Shown: one piece after another, positions 573 to 8,865 of the stretch
Layout: every line of letters starts with the position of its first letter
How positions within the stretch are numbered: position 1 is the stretch's first letter
Source: Sphingopyxis alaskensis RB2256
GTDB taxonomy: Bacteria > Pseudomonadota > Alphaproteobacteria > Sphingomonadales > Sphingomonadaceae
Assembly (NCBI RefSeq): GCF_000013985.1
Contig: NC_008048.1
Coordinates: forward strand, 2,666,001-2,730,000
Direction of reading: 5' to 3'
Length of the DNA: 64,000 nucleotides
Program-made: the position numbers and the translations under genes
The notes under the pieces: generated by a model
Database searches by the model: none
Told to the model about the DNA's origin: nothing
Seen by the model: only the letters and a program-made list of their open reading frames with translations

Positions 573-643
573 CTATCTTCCCGTCATCGCACCCCCACTG
601 GCCGTCTGCCTGATGCACGGCCGAGAATATTGGGGGAGTGAAA

Positions 644-3175
644 ATGTCGATGAAATCCCGTTCGCTGGCCGCACTGCTCGTCGGCACAGCAGCCTTGCTT
701 TCGCCCGAAGGCGCGCAGGCCATGCAGGCGCCGCGCCAATCCTATGATATTCCGGCGCAGGATCTGGGCGACGCTCTGCGCCGTGCCGCCGCGCTCGCCG
801 ATATCGAGCTCTATGTCAGCGCGCAGGACATCGAAGGGAAGAGGGCGCCCGCCGTGCGGGGTCAGCTCACGCCGCGCGAAGCCATCGAGGCGCTTCTCGC
901 CGGCAGCGGCCTCACGGCGCGTTTCGAGAGCCGGTCGGTCATTATCCTGAGCGACGCCGCCGTTCCGGCCATCCCCGCGGGCGAGCCCGAAGTCATCATC
1001 GTCACCGGGTCGCGCATCGCGGGCGCTCCTGCCGCCGCGCCGGTTATCGACATCAGTGCCGAGGATATTCGCAACGCGGGTCATGCCGACCTCGGCGAGG
1101 TGGCGCGAAACCTGCCCCAGAATTTCGGCGGCGGGCAGAATCCCGGGATCGGGTCGGGTCAGGGCGTCGCGAACGAGAATGGAAACGTCAATGGGGCCTC
1201 GACCTTCAACCTCAGGGGGATAGGGCCGAGTGCAACGCTGACGCTGCTCAATGGCAATCGCTTTGCCTACAGCGGCACGCAAAGCGCCATCGACGTGAGT
1301 GCGATTCCGGCAGCGGCGGTCGAACGGATCGAGATCGTCACCGACGGCGCGTCGGCGATCTACGGCGCCGACGCGGTGGCGGGCGTGGTCAATATCCTGC
1401 TGCGCAAGGATTATGAAGGAATCACGACGAGTGCCCGGCTCGGCGGATCGACCGACGGGGGCAATTTTCAGCAGCAATATGGGCTGCTCGGGGGCGCAAA
1501 ATGGTCCGGTGGCGGCTTCCTTGCGGCCTATGACTATTTCGAGAATAGCGCGATCCTTGCGCGCAATCGCAGCTATGCAGCGAGCAGCAACCCCGCCTCG
1601 ACACTCTACCCGGAGCTCAAGCGGCATAGTTTTCTGCTGAGCGCTCATCAGCAGGTGGTTGCCGGCGTACAGTTGAAGACCGACGCGATCTACAAGCGCG
1701 GCGATATGACTTCGGTGCGCGGTCTTATCGTGGACCGTCCGATCACGACGCGCGGTACGATTGTCACCAATGAGTTCGAAACGTTCGGGATCGCCCCAAC
1801 GCTCGAGGCCGAGATCGGCGGCAGTTGGAACGCGCGTATCTCCGCTTTCTACGGCAGCGATGATACCTATGGCGAGACGCAGAATTTCACCAACGGTGTG
1901 GCGACGCGCCCCATTCGCATATTCAACAATCGCAGTGTCAGCGTCGAAGCCGGTGTGGAGGGCGCGATCTTCGCGCTACCCGCCGGCGATGTGCGGCTCG
2001 CCGCCGGCGGCGGCTGGCGTCGCAACCGGCTCGTCGCAGAGGTCAACGGCCGTGGTTTCACCGGACGCCGCGACAATCTCTATGCCTATGGCGAGCTCTT
2101 CCTGCCGCTGGCCAGCCCTGCACAGGACCTCGCCTTCCTGCACCGCGCGTCGATCACCGCAGCGCTGCGCTTCGAGGATTATTCGGATGCCGGGAGCATC
2201 GTGATTCCGAAGCTCGGCTTCGTCTATGCGCCGGCTGCGGAACTGAGCATCGGCCTGTCGTGGGGCCGGTCCTTCAAGATGCCGACGCTCAACCAGCAGT
2301 TCAGCGGCTACACGCCGGTGCTGCTGCCTGTGACCGGCTACGGTACGATGTTCCCGGCGGGTTCGACCTACATCTATCTCGGCGGCCGAAATCCGGACGT
2401 CGGTCCCGAGCGATCCGAGAATATCACCCTGAGCGCGACCTTCCGGCCGTCACCCCGGCTTCAGATCGTCACCAGCCTGTTCCGGATCGATTATCGCGAC
2501 AGGGTTGCGCCGCCCTTCGGCTCGCCGCTCGGAACGCTGAGCAATCCGCTCTACGCCGATTTCATCACCTTCAACCCGTCGGCCGTGTTGCAGGCCGAGG
2601 CGATCGCCGGCGCGGCCGATCCCCTCGGGAACGGAACGAGCGGCCCATATAGTCCTGCCACGGTGATTGCGATCATCGACGGCCGCGACCGGAATATCGC
2701 CGCGCAGCGCTATGAAGGCGCCGATCTGGCGATCCGCTACCGGGCTCCGCTTGGCAAGCAGACGGTGACGCTCACCGCCAATGCCACCTGGCTCGACAGC
2801 CGGCAGCGACTGCTACCCGGCCTTCCGAACATCGATCTGGCCGGCACGATATTCAATTCGCCGCACTTTCGCGCCAGGGGCGGCGCGACCTTCGGTGACG
2901 AGCGCTTCACACTGGCGGCCTTCGCCAATTTCACGGGCGGCGTAACCGATCGGCGGCGCGCCGTGCCGGTGAGTGTCTCACCCGTCACGATGTTCGATCT
3001 CTCCGCACGCGTGAAGCTTGGGCGCCTTGCCGAAATATCGGTCAATGCGCTCAATATCCTCAATGCCAAGCCGGATATGACTGCAGTCGCGTCCGCTAGC
3101 GACACGCCTTTCGATACTACCAACTATTCGGCTGTCGGGCGTTTCCTCGGCGTCACGATCAGCCGCGACTGGTGA
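644..3175 (+). CDS. TonB-dependent outer-membrane receptor with STN signalling domain
   Basis: About 843 residues. A signal peptide (residues 1-26, ending near GAQA) is followed by an STN domain (about 30-110, starting SYDIPAQDLGDALRRAA), a plug domain (about 120-260, TGSRIAG to a DGASAIYGADAVAGVVNI motif) and a long beta-barrel that ends in an aromatic residue (SRDW), as barrel proteins do. The ATG at 644 is chosen because GGGGGAG lies five bases upstream; a GTG at 638 and an ATG at 650 are alternatives. The STN domain implies signalling through the FecR protein upstream. The isopeptidase gene begins 11 bases after the stop, so the receptor probably imports the lasso peptide, or a metal-peptide complex, for the isopeptidase. 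Ligand assignment is inference from context. Confidence 0.9.
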   Translation: MSMKSRSLAALLVGTAALLSPEGAQAMQAPRQSYDIPAQDLGDALRRAAALADIELYVSAQDIEGKRAPAVRGQLTPREAIEALLAGSGLTARFESRSVIILSDAAVPAIPAGEPEVIIVTGSRIAGAPAAAPVIDISAEDIRNAGHADLGEVARNLPQNFGGGQNPGIGSGQGVANENGNVNGASTFNLRGIGPSATLTLLNGNRFAYSGTQSAIDVSAIPAAAVERIEIVTDGASAIYGADAVAGVVNILLRKDYEGITTSARLGGSTDGGNFQQQYGLLGGAKWSGGGFLAAYDYFENSAILARNRSYAASSNPASTLYPELKRHSFLLSAHQQVVAGVQLKTDAIYKRGDMTSVRGLIVDRPITTRGTIVTNEFETFGIAPTLEAEIGGSWNARISAFYGSDDTYGETQNFTNGVATRPIRIFNNRSVSVEAGVEGAIFALPAGDVRLAAGGGWRRNRLVAEVNGRGFTGRRDNLYAYGELFLPLASPAQDLAFLHRASITAALRFEDYSDAGSIVIPKLGFVYAPAAELSIGLSWGRSFKMPTLNQQFSGYTPVLLPVTGYGTMFPAGSTYIYLGGRNPDVGPERSENITLSATFRPSPRLQIVTSLFRIDYRDRVAPPFGSPLGTLSNPLYADFITFNPSAVLQAEAIAGAADPLGNGTSGPYSPATVIAIIDGRDRNIAAQRYEGADLAIRYRAPLGKQTVTLTANATWLDSRQRLLPGLPNIDLAGTIFNSPHFRARGGATFGDERFTLAAFANFTGGVTDRRRAVPVSVSPVTMFDLSARVKLGRLAEISVNALNILNAKPDMTAVASASDTPFDTTNYSAVGRFLGVTISRDW

Positions 3176-3186
3176 GGAGCGCCGAT

Positions 3187-5367
3187 ATGAAAATCGCACT
3201 CCGATCCGGCCTCCCGGCCGTGGCGCTCCTTGCCGCCGCGGCGCTCTCCCCTGCCGCGCAGGCAGGGGAGAGCAAGGGCAGGCCCTGGACGCTCGAGGAT
3301 ATCCTCACAGTTCCCGAAGTGAATGAAATCGCGCTGTCGGACAATGGCCGCCTCGCGATTTACGCTGCCGAGATTGCCGACCTCGATGCCGGAAAGCCGA
3401 GATCGCATATTCGCATCGTGGACGTCGAAACTGGTCGGACGAAGGAATTGCTGACGGTCGATACCATCAAGTCGCTGCGATCCGTCCCCGGGACACAAGA
3501 CTGGAGCGCTTTGGTAGACCTTGGCGAAGGCCAGCAACTCTACCGGATCGACACCGAGGGCAAGCTGCTGCCACTGATCGTGAACCCCAACCCCGTGCCG
3601 GTGGGAAAGGCCGACATGTCTTTCCCGCTCGGCGGCGGCATACGCCCCTCGCATATCGGTATCCTCGACTATGACTGGTCACCCGATGGCAAATGGCTTT
3701 GGTATTCACAGCTCAGGGCCAAGTCCGACGGACCTCGTGTCCGGTTCGATGAGGAAGTGACCGCCCTACTTGGCCGGAGACGGTCAACGATCGACGTCGA
3801 AGTCGACTTTTTTCTTCGGAATCCTGAGGGAGACACGACGAGGATCATGGCGCGCCCATCGACAGATCGCGTCGCCACCCGTGGTGGGGGGCGCGTTCTG
3901 TGGCGCGGCAATGAAGTCCAGTTTCGGATCGAGACGAGCGACGGCACTTTGGGCGGTGCCTTCGAATTCGTGGCGTGGAACCGCGTCAACAGGACGGTGC
4001 GCACGCTCGCGAAACAACGCGACTTGCTCAGCATGTCGATTCTCGTCGGCCCGCGCGGTGGGCAGCTTTCGACAAGCGGTCTGGGCAGCGATCGGGAGTT
4101 GATCGAGACCTCGGCAGAAGGTCGACCACACAGCTATGGTCGTGTCGCATTCGACATCGGCGATTCTCGTTCGGCTGGCTGGAAACGTAGCCGCGATGGC
4201 AAACGGGTGGTGATCGGGACCAGGGGGCTCGGCGACGCGCGCTATGGTCTCGCGCTCATCGATAAAACAGGGGTGCGTGAACTCCGCGCGGACGCGAGCC
4301 TTACGCGATGCGGCTTCGACGGCATGCTCCGGTCTGCCATTTGCGTCGAGGAAGGCATGTCCCGGCCGCCGCGCCTCGTTCGCGTGGATCTCGGCACAGA
4401 TAAGATCACAGACCTTGGTCCCATCTCACCAAGACATGAGGAGATCGAACCTCTTCAGACAATTGCACGCACCTTTGTCAGTCGCGACGGCTATTGGTCG
4501 AGCGGCTATGTCTTGCTCCCGCGCGGCCACCGTGCCGCCGACCGACACCCAGCGGTGGTCGTGACCCACGGCACCGATGCAGACGACCGCTTTGCCGAGC
4601 CCGCAAACCAGTGGAACTATCCAGTCCAGCTGCTTGCTGAACGCGGTTATGTGGTTCTTCTCCTCAACGACCCCTCACCCGGCCAGTCGAAGGATTTGAT
4701 GGACGCCATGCACGCCTGGCTACGCGGTAAAGGTCCCCCCGATCCTGAAACGGTTCAACAAAAACTCTGGCTGACCGGCGTGCACAGCTTCGAGGATGCC
4801 GTGACGGAACTTGCCGCCGAGGGGCTGATCGATCCGGCCCGCGTCGGCATCGCCGGCTACAGTCGCGGCTCCCAAATGGTCAACGTTACCGTGACCAACT
4901 CAAAAATGTTTCGCGCGGCCTCGAGCGGCGATGGCGGCTTTCTGGAACCCGCCGGCTATGCAACGGGGCGCTCCAGTTATGATGCGGTCTATGGCGGTGC
5001 CCCGCTCAGCGACAATATCGAACGCTGGCGCCGATTTGCGCCGTCGCTGAATGCCGACAAAGTCTGTGCCGCGGTGTTGCAGCAAGTGGCTTCGGCATCG
5101 CCGTCACAGATCGAACTGTTCGAGGCTTTGCGTGCGGCGGGCGTGGCAACCCAGATCAGCTACTATCCGGGAGCAACAGCGGCGTCCGACGAGACGCATG
5201 TCTTCTACCTGACAACCAACCGATTGCGCGCGATGCGCGAAAACATTGCGTGGTTCGACTATTGGCTGCTCGACAAGCGGGACGCCGATGCGCCTTTCCC
5301 AGATCATGTGGTGAAATGGGATCGCTTGAAGAAGAACTTGCCAGATCGCTGCGCCGCCGCGCCTTGA
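3187..5367 (+). CDS. Lasso peptide isopeptidase (S9 prolyl-oligopeptidase type)
   Basis: About 726 residues with a signal peptide ending near PAAQA, an N-terminal beta-propeller-like region (about 25-420) and a C-terminal alpha/beta-hydrolase domain. The nucleophile is visible in GYSRGSQ (Ser about 559) and the catalytic His in DETHVF (about 671). Enzymes of this family cut the isopeptide bond of a lasso peptide and open its ring; the isopeptidase of the sphingopyxin I locus is a characterised member. The ATG at 3187 is preferred because GAGGAG lies seven bases upstream. The gene is probably co-transcribed with the receptor and converges with the lasso operon, only 7 bases separating its stop from that of the last precursor. 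Periplasmic location is inferred from the signal peptide. Confidence 0.92.
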   Translation: MKIALRSGLPAVALLAAAALSPAAQAGESKGRPWTLEDILTVPEVNEIALSDNGRLAIYAAEIADLDAGKPRSHIRIVDVETGRTKELLTVDTIKSLRSVPGTQDWSALVDLGEGQQLYRIDTEGKLLPLIVNPNPVPVGKADMSFPLGGGIRPSHIGILDYDWSPDGKWLWYSQLRAKSDGPRVRFDEEVTALLGRRRSTIDVEVDFFLRNPEGDTTRIMARPSTDRVATRGGGRVLWRGNEVQFRIETSDGTLGGAFEFVAWNRVNRTVRTLAKQRDLLSMSILVGPRGGQLSTSGLGSDRELIETSAEGRPHSYGRVAFDIGDSRSAGWKRSRDGKRVVIGTRGLGDARYGLALIDKTGVRELRADASLTRCGFDGMLRSAICVEEGMSRPPRLVRVDLGTDKITDLGPISPRHEEIEPLQTIARTFVSRDGYWSSGYVLLPRGHRAADRHPAVVVTHGTDADDRFAEPANQWNYPVQLLAERGYVVLLLNDPSPGQSKDLMDAMHAWLRGKGPPDPETVQQKLWLTGVHSFEDAVTELAAEGLIDPARVGIAGYSRGSQMVNVTVTNSKMFRAASSGDGGFLEPAGYATGRSSYDAVYGGAPLSDNIERWRRFAPSLNADKVCAAVLQQVASASPSQIELFEALRAAGVATQISYYPGATAASDETHVFYLTTNRLRAMRENIAWFDYWLLDKRDADAPFPDHVVKWDRLKKNLPDRCAAAP

Positions 5368-5374
5368 TCCGTGC

Positions 5375-5518
5375 TCAATCGTATTCGCCGATTCCTGCGA
5401 AGGGTATGTAGCGCGAGCCGGTGTCTTCCTCGACGGGGCCGACCGGTTCCAAACCGCGCGTCTGCGCACTAATCGCACCAAGGTCCAAAAGCTCCAACTT
5501 GGCGTCTCTGTCTTCCAT
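5375..5518 (-). CDS. Lasso peptide precursor, second copy (distal gene of operon)
   Basis: A 47-residue ORF with a clear GGAGGAAG ribosome binding site. The leader (21 residues) contains LLDLGAISAQTR; the conserved Thr sits at position -2, so the core starts at Gly (GLEPVGPVEED...) and ends FAGIGEYD, 26 residues. Gly1 and Glu9 would form a nine-residue ring. Leader and ring closely match the precursor at 7992-8126 (LIDLGAISVETR / GIEPLGPVD), but the ring acid is Glu instead of Asp and the tail differs (SRYIPFAGIGEYD). It lies 58 bases after the macrocyclase gene, as the last gene of the operon, and nearly touches the convergent isopeptidase. Identification as a lasso precursor is firm; whether it matures and what it does are unknown. 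Confidence 0.9.
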   Translation of the reverse strand: MEDRDAKLELLDLGAISAQTRGLEPVGPVEEDTGSRYIPFAGIGEYD

Positions 5519-5576
5519 TGCTCTTCCTCCAAATTGCGGTTCGAATTGAACGCGCATCACATTCTTGTTCTCATGA

Positions 5577-7289
5577 TCAATTTCCCTCCCAATATCGGGC
5601 CCAATTCTCTGCGGCGACGAATGTGAGGATCCTGTCGATGCGATCCGTGCCGCGCCAGCTTGGGTCTTCGGGTGTGTCAAGAAGAGCAAGATCCAAGATC
5701 CCCGACTCCGCAAGGATCCCGCCGCGTAGGCGATCGTGGAGCGCAGATCGGTGGGCGCGATAGATCGACAGGTGAAAGTCGCCAGGTCCGCCCTTTTGTG
5801 TTCGCGCGGTGATCAACTCCGGTAAACATCCCTCGAATGCTTTTCTCGCCACAGCGCGATTCTGTCCTCCGGCGATCCAATCCCAAGTCGGGATCGCAAG
5901 ACAGGCTTCGATGATCGGCTGCGACATCAGCGGGGCAATGTGGGGAGGCATCGTCGCGCGCGGATAAAGCTCGATGCCCTTCTGCGCTCGCATCAGAAAT
6001 GCGGCGTGTACAGTCTTCCCCGGAAGAATGTCGTCAGGCGCATCGAGCCAGGGGTGGGAGGCGCCCTCCGCCCTGATCTTTCGTCCGACTTCCTTTCCCA
6101 GGCCCGCAAGATTGATGAGAGGACTATGCCGCCCTCGATTTCGTCGATAGCGGTCCCAGCCGTGCTTCAAGACTGTCTTGGTATCGGCTCCGGTCAACAG
6201 GGTGAGATCGTAAAGGGTGGACGCGAGGGATGGCCGCGGACCTTCGGCCAGAAGCCGATCAATAAAGGGCACAGCGCTTCGTACACCACAAAGGATGCCG
6301 TCGCCGCCATTGCCGGAAAAGAAGGCATCGACGGGTAGTTGGCCGAGCAAGCGCCGATGGATCGCCTCATTGGTCTGCTTGTAGAGCGGAGCAACGGGCC
6401 AAGGATGATGTGGCGCTGCCGAGACGGTGACGTCAATGTCTTGCAGCTCGCGATGCTCCTCGATCAGCAGCGTGCCGATCGACTCTGCAAGCGCCCGGGC
6501 GTACCTGCGCTCATCTCCATCGAAATCGGGGCTCACCAGATTCAGACAGGTCAGCCTCTTGGCCATATTCGCTGCCGAGGCCGCAACAATCGAGGAGTCG
6601 AGCCCGCCCGACACGCCGACCATGATCGAGGGGAAGCAGGTAGCCCACGCTCCGACGCAGTCCGCTATCGTGCGCCTCAATGCGTCAGCCATATCGTCGG
6701 CGCCAAGGCCGGAACTGGCGACATGATCCCAAGGCGACCAATATTGCTCGGTCCGTAATTCACCCTTGTCGATGACCAGGCATTCGCTGGCGATCAGTTC
6801 TTCGACGTCCGATACACATGTCCGTCGCCCCCGAAGATCGCCACCCGCCAGGATGCGAGCGATCTCATCGAGATTTGCCGAACCAGGGGCGGGGTTAGCG
6901 AGGTCAGTAATCGATCCTGCAAGCGTCACGCGGCCGCGATCGCGGCGGACATAGCAAGGAAGAAGTCCCGATGGATCGCGAAATATCCGTACCGCACCCC
7001 CTGGGTCGGCATGGACCATGACGTAACCGCCCCAATATTGCCTCAGCAGCCGTTGCGCATCATTGGCCGCAAGACCATCGCCCTCGCCGACTTCAAAAGC
7101 CTCGACCCGGCGGCTGGGTGGGCCTCTCGTAAAAAGATGACCGATGATGACGGTCCGAGGAGGCACTGCGATTGCCGGTTCGGCGGTCCATATCCTCACG
7201 CCAGATATTTCGAAAGTCGGCGGTCCCTGCTGCTCCGGAGCCTGACGGTTGGTCGACATCTCGACCTCAATTCGAAACCCGCCTTTCAT
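5577..7289 (-). CDS. Lasso peptide macrocyclase (C protein, asparagine synthase-like)
   Basis: About 570 residues. The C-terminal asparagine-synthase-type domain shows the ATP pyrophosphatase loop SGGLDSS (about residues 227-233). The N-terminal region resembles the glutaminase half of asparagine synthetase B but does not start with Cys, as is usual for lasso C proteins. The enzyme adenylates the side chain of Asp or Glu in the core and joins it to the alpha-amine of Gly1. The start at 7289 overlaps the stop of the B gene as TGATG, implying translational coupling; the frame stays open upstream to 7367 inside the B gene, and an ATG at 7259 is another option. Family assignment is confident from the motif and neighbours. 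Confidence 0.92.
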   Translation of the reverse strand: MKGGFRIEVEMSTNRQAPEQQGPPTFEISGVRIWTAEPAIAVPPRTVIIGHLFTRGPPSRRVEAFEVGEGDGLAANDAQRLLRQYWGGYVMVHADPGGAVRIFRDPSGLLPCYVRRDRGRVTLAGSITDLANPAPGSANLDEIARILAGGDLRGRRTCVSDVEELIASECLVIDKGELRTEQYWSPWDHVASSGLGADDMADALRRTIADCVGAWATCFPSIMVGVSGGLDSSIVAASAANMAKRLTCLNLVSPDFDGDERRYARALAESIGTLLIEEHRELQDIDVTVSAAPHHPWPVAPLYKQTNEAIHRRLLGQLPVDAFFSGNGGDGILCGVRSAVPFIDRLLAEGPRPSLASTLYDLTLLTGADTKTVLKHGWDRYRRNRGRHSPLINLAGLGKEVGRKIRAEGASHPWLDAPDDILPGKTVHAAFLMRAQKGIELYPRATMPPHIAPLMSQPIIEACLAIPTWDWIAGGQNRAVARKAFEGCLPELITARTQKGGPGDFHLSIYRAHRSALHDRLRGGILAESGILDLALLDTPEDPSWRGTDRIDRILTFVAAENWARYWEGN

Positions 7290-7930
7290 CAGACGGCGAA
7301 GATCGGTCGATAGTGGAGAACCATGTCCAAGGAGTCGGTCAGGACGGTATCGCCGACCTGAACCCAACTATGGGCGGCGAAGGGCATGGTGACGCCAAAC
7401 ACAAGCGAGGCTGCCACGCCGCGGCACCCAAGCATCCGTGCCATGGCAATGCCGCGCACGAGGCATTGGTCATCTGATGACATATAGCGCTTGGCGCGAA
7501 CGAACGCGGCGGCGATTTCGCGGCAATCGTCCGCACTGGATGGCGCCAGTCGATCCGACCTGCGTCCCAGGCCGGTTACAATATCGGAAAGAGACTTGTT
7601 TTGAAGATCGCGGCGGGCTCGTCGCTGCTCCCAGATACAGAATATTGTCGTCGCCATAGAAGCCTTGGCGGTCGGCTCATCAACGAGACTGCGCGCAGCC
7701 AGCGGTGGAAGGATTGCAGGCGCAGGTTTACCGGTTTCATCGTCGGCGAGAAGGCCGAGGTCACGCAGATGATGTTCATCCGCAGACGTCCCGCCACCGC
7801 TCAGCACTCGGCCAAACTGTTCCGCTGATTGATCGGTGAGAAGAAAATAGCGGTCGGCGGAGAGATCGAACAAGACGAAGCCACTGTCAAACTGACAGTA
7901 GTGCAGGCCCGATCGCAGCATGGCGGACAT
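7289..7930 (-). CDS. Lasso peptide B protein (RRE leader-binding domain fused to transglutaminase-like leader peptidase)
   Basis: About 213 residues from the ATG at 7930. The N-terminal 80 residues (LRSGLHYCQFDSGFVLFDL, DRYFLL) look like a RiPP recognition element. The C-terminal part carries the cysteine protease triad: Cys in SSDDQCLVRG (about 156), His in FAAHSWVQV (about 187) and a following Asp (LTDSLD). It binds the leader and cuts it off before ring closure. The start is uncertain: the frame extends to a GTG at 7981, but that codon lies inside the 7959-7984 hairpin, so the ATG at 7930 or 7921 is likelier; none has a strong ribosome binding site. Its stop overlaps the C gene start. Confidence 0.88.
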   Translation of the reverse strand: MSAMLRSGLHYCQFDSGFVLFDLSADRYFLLTDQSAEQFGRVLSGGGTSADEHHLRDLGLLADDETGKPAPAILPPLAARSLVDEPTAKASMATTIFCIWEQRRARRDLQNKSLSDIVTGLGRRSDRLAPSSADDCREIAAAFVRAKRYMSSDDQCLVRGIAMARMLGCRGVAASLVFGVTMPFAAHSWVQVGDTVLTDSLDMVLHYRPIFAV

Positions 7931-7958
7931 TTCGATAATTGCGCGGGGCAATGCGAAT

Positions 7959-7984
7959 GGCGTGCCGCATGCGAGCGGCACGCC
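7959..7984 (-). promoter_or_regulatory. Intergenic hairpin after first lasso precursor
   Basis: Perfect 10-base arms (GGCGTGCCGC / GCGGCACGCC) around a 6-base loop, 7 bases downstream of the precursor stop and before the B gene. Similar hairpins between the A gene and the processing genes are known from other proteobacterial lasso operons. The likely effect is to make much precursor mRNA and less mRNA for the enzymes, by partial termination or by protecting the upstream 3' end. There is no T-run. Confidence 0.7.
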
Positions 7985-7991
7985 ACCGCTT

Positions 7992-8126
7992 TCAGTCGTC
8001 GGCCGTGATGCCGCCGGCGAACAGATAATGTTCGCCCTGATCCTCGTCGACCGGTCCGAGCGGCTCGATACCGCGGGTTTCGACGCTGATGGCGCCGAGG
8101 TCGATCAGTTCGTTGAAGTCTTTCAT
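7992..8126 (-). CDS. Lasso peptide precursor, sphingopyxin I type
   Basis: A 44-residue ORF with a good ribosome binding site (GGAAGGAAG). The leader of 18 residues ends ISVETR, with the conserved Thr at -2. The 26-residue core starts GIEPLGPVDED and ends FAGGITADD; Gly1 to Asp9 would close a nine-residue ring. From memory the core equals sphingopyxin I of Sphingopyxis alaskensis; this should be confirmed by database comparison. It is the first gene of the lasso operon (precursor, hairpin, B, C, second precursor). The role of sphingopyxin is not established; the adjacent receptor and isopeptidase suggest a peptide that is taken back up and opened. Confidence 0.95.
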   Translation of the reverse strand: MKDFNELIDLGAISVETRGIEPLGPVDEDQGEHYLFAGGITADD

Positions 8127-8640
8127 TGCTTCTTCCTTCCCAATTCGCGACCAGAATGAGTCGCATTCAGGAAGTTATGCCTCGGGCAGAGTGGCATCCA
8201 TTTTATAATCCAATAATAATCGGATACCCATCAATCTCCCAAAAAAGTGACCGAGCCAAGGAAACGCACGTCGGGGCGCGCACCACTACCTTTAGCTTTC
8301 GCCTGGACATCCGTAGCGGAACCCGGTCACACACTTCAACAATTGCGAAGTGCGCGATTTCATCCCCGATCAACGGAACAATTAGCAATGACAACTGGAA
8401 CCGAAATTGGATGTTTCTGCGAACTGCATCGAGGTTCGATGGACAGGTCTCCAAGACAGGGCCTGCGATAGCCGCAGCCGCTTCCCATTCGTAGACGGCT
8501 TATGGTCGACCTTGCAGATTCATTCCGATGCCACGATCCCAAGTGGTGACATTATGGGGACAAAACCCATCAAAGGCCGCTTTGTCACCAAACGTCGCAG
8601 TGCGCCTGGAGGTCTAAGTCACTGGAAAATGTAGGAAAAC
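8127..8640. other. Gene-free region upstream of the lasso operon
   Basis: I see no convincing gene here. An A+T-rich patch at about 8200-8234 is the likely promoter region of the leftward lasso operon: read on the - strand there is a TTGATG element (8229-8234) and TGGATT/TTATAA-like elements at 8203-8211. The match to consensus is weak, so exact boxes are a guess. The remainder shows no repeats I can support. Confidence 0.3.
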
Positions 8641-8690
8641 TGGAGCGGGCGAAGGGATTCGAACCCTCGACCCCAACCTTGGCAAAGTTG
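8641..8690 (-). other. 3' half of tRNA-Gly(GCC): attachment site and left border of the island
   Basis: Read on the - strand, this holds a complete anticodon arm (CAACT, loop TTGCCAA with anticodon GCC, GGTTG), variable region, T-arm with GGTTCGAATCC, the 3' acceptor strand CGCCCGC, discriminator T and CCA. The 5' half (acceptor strand GCGGGCG and a normal D-arm) is absent; other sequence follows. One anticodon-stem pair is a T-G wobble. This is what integration into a tRNA gene leaves at the far border: a duplicated 3' part. The integrase starts 176 bases away. The intact tRNA-Gly should lie at the other end of the element, beyond 64000. Confidence 0.8.
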
Positions 8691-8865
8691 TGAAAGCCAT
8701 TTTCGGGTTTTCTCCAGGCTACGCCATTCTACTACTAATATACTGATATATATCTTGATTTCTGGAATTTCTTACGCTATCCTTGTCTAGAAAAACACGC
8801 CGATTTCCGAATGGCGTGGTCGCCCGGTGGTCGCCCAGAATGGGGTGCCTAACAAGGAGAAAGTG

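Follow-up and report, generated by a model that had tools for sequence, protein, structure and literature searches.

Sphingopyxin I is encoded in a well-studied lasso peptide cluster of Sphingopyxis alaskensis RB2256, and a short open reading frame lies at the far end of its operon, between the macrocyclase and isopeptidase genes. This raises the question of whether the short gene, A2, encodes a second lasso precursor that shares the enzymes of the first precursor, A1. The locus was analysed in a window of 64,000 nucleotides, which is the whole stretch of DNA studied here. Genomes and loci of relatives are designated by G and L numbers, respectively. The comparisons reported below make it likely that A2 truly encodes such a precursor, closes the sphingopyxin I operon as its final cistron and gives a Glu9-ringed peptide by way of the same leader peptidase (B) and macrocyclase (C).

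The sphingopyxin I cluster

The genes A1, B, C and A2 are located on the minus strand (Table 1). A FecR-like gene, on the plus strand like the isopeptidase gene (E) and the gene for the TonB-dependent receptor, points at A1-B-C-A2. A gene for an ECF sigma factor is positioned ahead of the FecR-like gene, just beyond the window. Heterologous production of sphingopyxin I, as described in passages of PMC7549694, and the solved structure of the peptide indicate that B and C work on A1. The review PMC9266682 reports that, of 24 lasso peptides offered to the isopeptidase of this cluster, sphingopyxin I alone was opened, so that its action on a product of A2 cannot be assumed.

Table 1 Features of the sphingopyxin I cluster, with positions counted from the first nucleotide of the window
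Feature	Position	Strand	Remarks
TonB-dependent receptor of the cluster	638..3175	+	
E, sphingopyxin I isopeptidase	3187..5367	+	PDB 5jrk/5jrl match over full length; convergent with A2
A2, second lasso precursor gene (probable)	5375..5518	-	47 codons; reading frame, A1 homology and profile match
A2 core GLEPVGPVEEDTGSRYIPFAGIGEYD	5378..5455	-	26 residues; predicted lasso mass if untrimmed 2748.2918 Da
Glu9 codon of A2	5429..5431	-	Sole acid among core positions 7-9; conserved in the G030 orthologue
A2 leader	5456..5518	-	Residues 1-21; LLDLG motif, Thr at -2
A2 Shine-Dalgarno GGAGGA	5525..5530	-	Six bases ahead of ATG; kept in L035
Predicted hairpin, A2 5' region	5535..5556	-	Not seen in the fold predicted for the G030 orthologue
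C, lasso macrocyclase (Asn_synthase family)	5577..7289	-	ATG overlaps the B stop codon; start chosen by reading
B, leader peptidase	7289..7981	-	C-terminal lasso B2 / Transglut_core3 domain; start codon uncertain
A1, sphingopyxin I precursor	7992..8126	-	First 21 core residues = PDB 5jqf
Hairpin GCGAC-TCATTCTG-GTCGC, A1 5' region	8147..8164	-	
Tandem operator-like repeat GATTATTATTGGATTATAAAA upstream of A1	8201..8221	-	Sole match in the window

Location and expression signals of A2

The initial annotation had placed a second precursor related to A1, with 47 codons, downstream of the macrocyclase gene and next to the isopeptidase gene. The reading frame, the Shine-Dalgarno sequence, the homology to A1 and the profile match all agreed with this assignment. 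Translation starts at the ATG at 5518 and ends at the stop codon in 5375-5377, giving a product of 47 amino acids with the leader MEDRDAKLELLDLGAISAQTR and the core GLEPVGPVEEDTGSRYIPFAGIGEYD. The position was borne out as well: A2 starts 58 nt past the stop codon of C, and its end is 7 nt from the stop of the convergent isopeptidase gene. An in-frame start further upstream (MRVQFEPQFGGRAMEDRD...) was not favoured because the Shine-Dalgarno sequence fits the inner ATG and the added residues are less conserved, with 5 of 13 identical to G030 by our own count.

No sigma-70-like promoter was found near A2 by a scan that covers one promoter type and is weak evidence on this point. The scan reported no terminator between C and A2 or past A2, and no second copy of the operator-like repeat was present in the window besides that of A1. 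The single operator copy at A1 is consistent with A2 being read from the operon promoter, in which case A2 would be co-transcribed with A1, B and C.

Relation of A2 to lasso peptide precursors

A search of the S. alaskensis genome (3,373,713 bases on two contigs) matched A2 to A1 at 63% over residues 9-43 (E = 2.6e-10). A hidden Markov model (HMM) was built from 87 precursors lying upstream of C, with A2 excluded. It recovered A2 with E = 1.2e-7 among 20,945 ORFs from 98 locus rows; the best unrelated ORF in this set reached E = 1.7, and four of the 98 rows were without any match. Matches downstream of C at E < 0.001 occurred in seven rows, all of which held either A2 itself (five rows, one MAG twice) or the precursors of Sphingomonas L075 and L083.

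Residues important for lasso precursors are present in A2. The penultimate leader residue is Thr (...AQTR ahead of Gly1), which is kept in G030, and a conserved Thr at this position of lasso precursors is described in passages of PMC12670498. The core begins with a small residue, Gly1. According to PMC11006600, the ring acid, an Asp or a Glu, occupies position 7, 8 or 9 of the core; positions 7 and 8 of the A2 core are Pro and Val and position 9 is Glu. A2 also lies beside lasso B and C genes, with B upstream of C. Sequence, position and orthologue thus give good support to the earlier description of a lasso precursor in which Glu9 alone, among positions 7-9, could serve as ring acid. The gene had also been called easily missed, and its scores lie slightly under the cut-offs of both family models: A2 reached 27 bits with NCBIfam NF033522 (benenodin family lasso peptide; cut-off 33) and 26.2 bits with Pfam PF24178 (Subterisin; gathering cut-off 27), whereas A1 scored 34.5 and 37.8 bits, respectively.

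A2 is short and adjoins a convergent gene, as a chance ORF within the C/E spacer might, but its match to A1, its recognition by an independent HMM and the existence of an orthologue with 68% identity leave this reading with a negligible probability, and it was rejected.

Distribution of downstream precursors

The comparison with other Sphingopyxis loci suggested in the initial annotation detected A2 proper, in the order A-B-C-A, in 4 of 80 Sphingopyxis genomes: S. alaskensis, G041, G053 and G030. Its DNA is identical in the first three, and the G030 copy has 68% protein identity. Some match to the A2 query at E ≤ 0.01 was obtained in 23 of the 80 genomes. The A-B-C-A order was also found in two Sphingomonas loci (L075 and L083). 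A family-wide sample of 89 loci, partly overlapping the first sample of 98 rows, contained 73 loci with an upstream precursor (E < 0.01), none of which had a credible downstream one too. The precursor-B-C-precursor order had been judged unusual. Its rarity stands, in the Sphingopyxis genomes as in the family-wide loci, but the order is not unique, as the two Sphingomonas loci share the layout.

L226 and L229 held a precursor-like ORF downstream of C only, with none upstream by this HMM. Both were left out of the A-B-C-A count because their C proteins are distant. A downstream match in L178 (E = 4.9, 1307 nt off) was taken as chance, and a regular-expression candidate in L103 was dropped for want of HMM support. 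L051, which has a stop codon within the supplied stretch, was taken out of the C alignment for that reason. With A2 as the query against 397 family genomes, three matches at E ≤ 0.001 were returned, namely S. alaskensis itself and A1-type genes in G046 and G037. The Sphingomonas downstream precursor as the query matched none of the 397, a set without a positive control, so that this negative carries no weight. Decaying lasso clusters were observed in the genus (L036 at about 9233, L037 and L043), with a C gene cut short in G046 and partial C matches in G027 and G037.

Origin of A2 and selective constraint

The distance between the stops of C and E separates loci with and without a downstream precursor. 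Of 88 partly redundant locus rows (10 of the 98 had no measurable gap), 81 lacked a downstream precursor and showed a distance between -142 and +80 nt; the remaining seven, at 198-215 nt, were exactly those that had one. A2 occupies a gap of about 210 nt. As the C and E stops abut, overlap or nearly meet where the precursor is absent, A2 looks like a gain. Besides its orthologue, the nearest relative of A2 is A1 of its own cluster, by a narrow margin (score 120 versus 116 for the next), and the Sphingomonas downstream precursor is nearest to the A1 genes of L075 and L083 (89 and 88 versus 79). These own-locus relationships suggest duplication within each cluster. A2 was probably duplicated from A1 into the C/isopeptidase junction, and the pattern suggests that the Sphingomonas downstream precursors were a separate gain.

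Since three of the four A2 genes share one DNA sequence, selection on A2 could be estimated from a single informative comparison, S. alaskensis with G030. The two genes differ at 31 nucleotides without a gap, and 15 of 47 residues are changed. The nucleotide divergence of A2 was 21.5%, against 12.4% for B and 9.6% for C, making A2 the fastest-evolving gene compared. The dN/dS ratio was 0.50 for A2, 0.31 for B, 0.13 for C, 0.16 for E and 0 for A1, which showed no amino-acid change. The bias of the A2 changes towards third codon positions was modest (15 of 31). In a neutral simulation with 31 changes, 20.0 ± 2.1 amino-acid changes were expected versus the 15 seen (P(≤15) = 0.017, or P = 0.0076 with no stop codon). 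Constraint on A2 therefore appears weak rather than absent. The downstream precursor of Sphingomonas is constrained, with dN 0.055 and dS 0.62 from the IELG motif on, and its core differs in 1 of 22 residues between L075 and L083.

Weak constraint bears on whether A2 is instead a duplicate in the course of being lost, weakly expressed or unprocessed and with no product of its own. A gene of this kind might be expected to evolve fast and to be missing from most of the relatives searched, as A2 is, and such clusters do decay, as the truncated C of G046 illustrates. The G030 orthologue nevertheless retains the frame without an indel, the Shine-Dalgarno sequence and the residues T-2, G1, P4, G6, V8, E9, E10 and D11, so that neither lineage has lost the residues critical for processing, and amino-acid changes were fewer than in the neutral simulation. 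With a dN/dS of 0.50, the loss of A2 in progress keeps some probability, but it is unlikely.

Predicted product and ring acid

If A2 is a functional second precursor, its processing would follow that of A1. The A2 leader keeps the LxLG...T-x motif, by which it would be recognised by B. B would then cleave off the 21-residue leader, and C would link Gly1 to Glu9, giving a 9-residue ring and a 17-residue tail. Since mature sphingopyxin I in the solved structure comprises 21 of the 26 encoded residues (PDB 5jqf), the end of the A2 tail may be trimmed too. The masses predicted for lasso forms of A2 shortened to 22 and 21 residues are 2284.1375 and 2171.0534 Da, and the untrimmed form would give [M+2H]2+ at 1375.1532. 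A threaded peptide of this kind would be a second natural product of the cluster.

The replacement of Asp9 by Glu9, the core and the differing tail matched the earlier description of A2. Among 95 distinct precursors, Glu9 without an acid at positions 7-8 was found only in the two A2 orthologues, by a pattern that missed the Glu9 precursor of L058. Precursors with Asp and with Glu occurred under one C in three of the 12 loci that have multiple precursors upstream: L058 encodes D9 and E9, and L093 and L096 each encode D8, D8 and E8. L121 and L122 contain the same sequences. As these three loci combine Asp and Glu beside one C, the exchange of the ring acid is uncommon but not new in kind. The mixed loci also bear on the idea that C, preferring Asp9, closes the ring of B-cleaved A2 inefficiently or never, so that the peptide stays linear and competes with sphingopyxin I production or regulates it. 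In favour of this idea, Glu9 makes the ring one methylene longer; with mixed precursors beside a single C in L058, L093 and L096, and with Glu9 conserved in G030, this explanation is very improbable.

Upstream regions of the precursor genes

A hairpin with a perfect stem was found upstream of first precursor genes, its end lying some 20 nt ahead of the ATG. Of 77 distinct upstream regions, 63 (82%) gave a stem score of at least 9; the corresponding shares were 11% for shuffled sequences and 8% and 12% for the two neighbouring windows. The hairpin was found again in 36 of 48 new upstream regions versus 4 and 15 of 48 control windows. The stems vary (GCGAC, GCCGC, GCTGC, GTCATGG), with four pair types at each of five pair positions; as stems were picked for complementarity and the loci are related, the controls carry weight and the pair types do not. 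Rfam gave no gathering-level match anywhere in the window. Alternatively, the element could be a dyad bound by a protein on DNA. The 5' region of A2 showed no significant similarity to that of A1 outside the Shine-Dalgarno sequence (p = 0.49; G030 p = 0.009). Tandem repeats of the GATTATAA type were observed upstream of both lasso operons of the genome (8201-8221 on the minus strand; L243 6464-6493) and are a candidate operator. By eye, repeats of this type were present upstream of many related precursor genes.

A wider picture can be drawn from these sequences. Duplicated precursors might repeatedly settle at the C/isopeptidase junction and there, freed from constraint, diversify in ring acid, tail and perhaps receptor, one enzyme set thereby yielding two signals. 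The first precursor gene of the operon would carry a 5' hairpin whose stem covaries, together with a tandem operator belonging to a regulatory type not yet described, and A2 would retain no more than a decaying version of this hairpin. This picture is tentative and, as a whole, rather doubtful.

Genome context

A second lasso cluster was detected in the genome at C2:2743832-2746387, with its own C. Its precursor is a 98% match to one from L092, which we take to be sphingopyxin II. The second cluster (L243, C2:2740000-2752000) is located about 70 kb off, beside genes for the conjugation proteins TrbL/VirB6, TrbI and CagX (Pfam), and may ride on a conjugative element, as these adjoining genes suggest. 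Near the sphingopyxin I cluster, a 3' piece of tRNA-Gly(GCC) was found at about 8641-8690, beside a phage-type integrase gene (Pfam PF00589; 8827-10257) and about 515 bp upstream of A1. L033 and L035 have an intact tRNA-Gly at an equal distance, so an element was probably inserted at this site in this genome. Further copies of the tRNA-Gly piece are present elsewhere in the genome. A weak Rfam match to tmRNA at 8651-8701 most plausibly reflects the 3' part of tRNA-Gly.

Significance and comparison with known systems

A2 is real and probably works as the second lasso precursor of this well-studied cluster, at a position that is unusual but recurrent. It extends an already known type of system in a fairly modest way and may have been described earlier. 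The passages of the sphingopyxin literature and of PMC11006600 that were covered contained no description of A2. Passages of PMC6092494 remark that deletion of extra precursors may have raised yields in some Hegemann 2013 clusters, which are not named there; extra precursors were thus already known in some of these clusters. A natural pair of Asp9 and Glu9 substrates in one operon offers a ready test of how strict the macrocyclase and the isopeptidase are towards ring acid and tail. It is useful as such because the structures of the peptide and the isopeptidase are solved and the isopeptidase is reported to be narrow. Precursors at the far end of an operon can escape searches that apply HMM cut-offs or are confined to the region upstream of B.

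A2 resembles sphingopyxin I (A1) in its operon, leader motif, Gly1, acid at position 9, encoded core of 26 residues, and B and C. It differs in its location downstream of C, in Glu9 instead of Asp9 and in the tail, IPFAGIGEYD versus LFAGGITADD. The sphingopyxin II cluster likewise contains a lasso precursor with the same operator-like repeats upstream, but has its own C and a different core. The loci of Sphingomonas pituitosa (L083) and an uncultured Sphingomonas (L075) share the precursor-B-C-precursor order with the second precursor at the C/isopeptidase junction, whereas their downstream core is different and carries Asp8. In the caulosegnin cluster, all precursors are located upstream of B, unlike A2. 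Caulosegnins I-III are like the A2 system in having several precursors per enzyme set, and the processing of three precursors by the same enzymes, described in passages of PMC13352647, is a precedent for A2.
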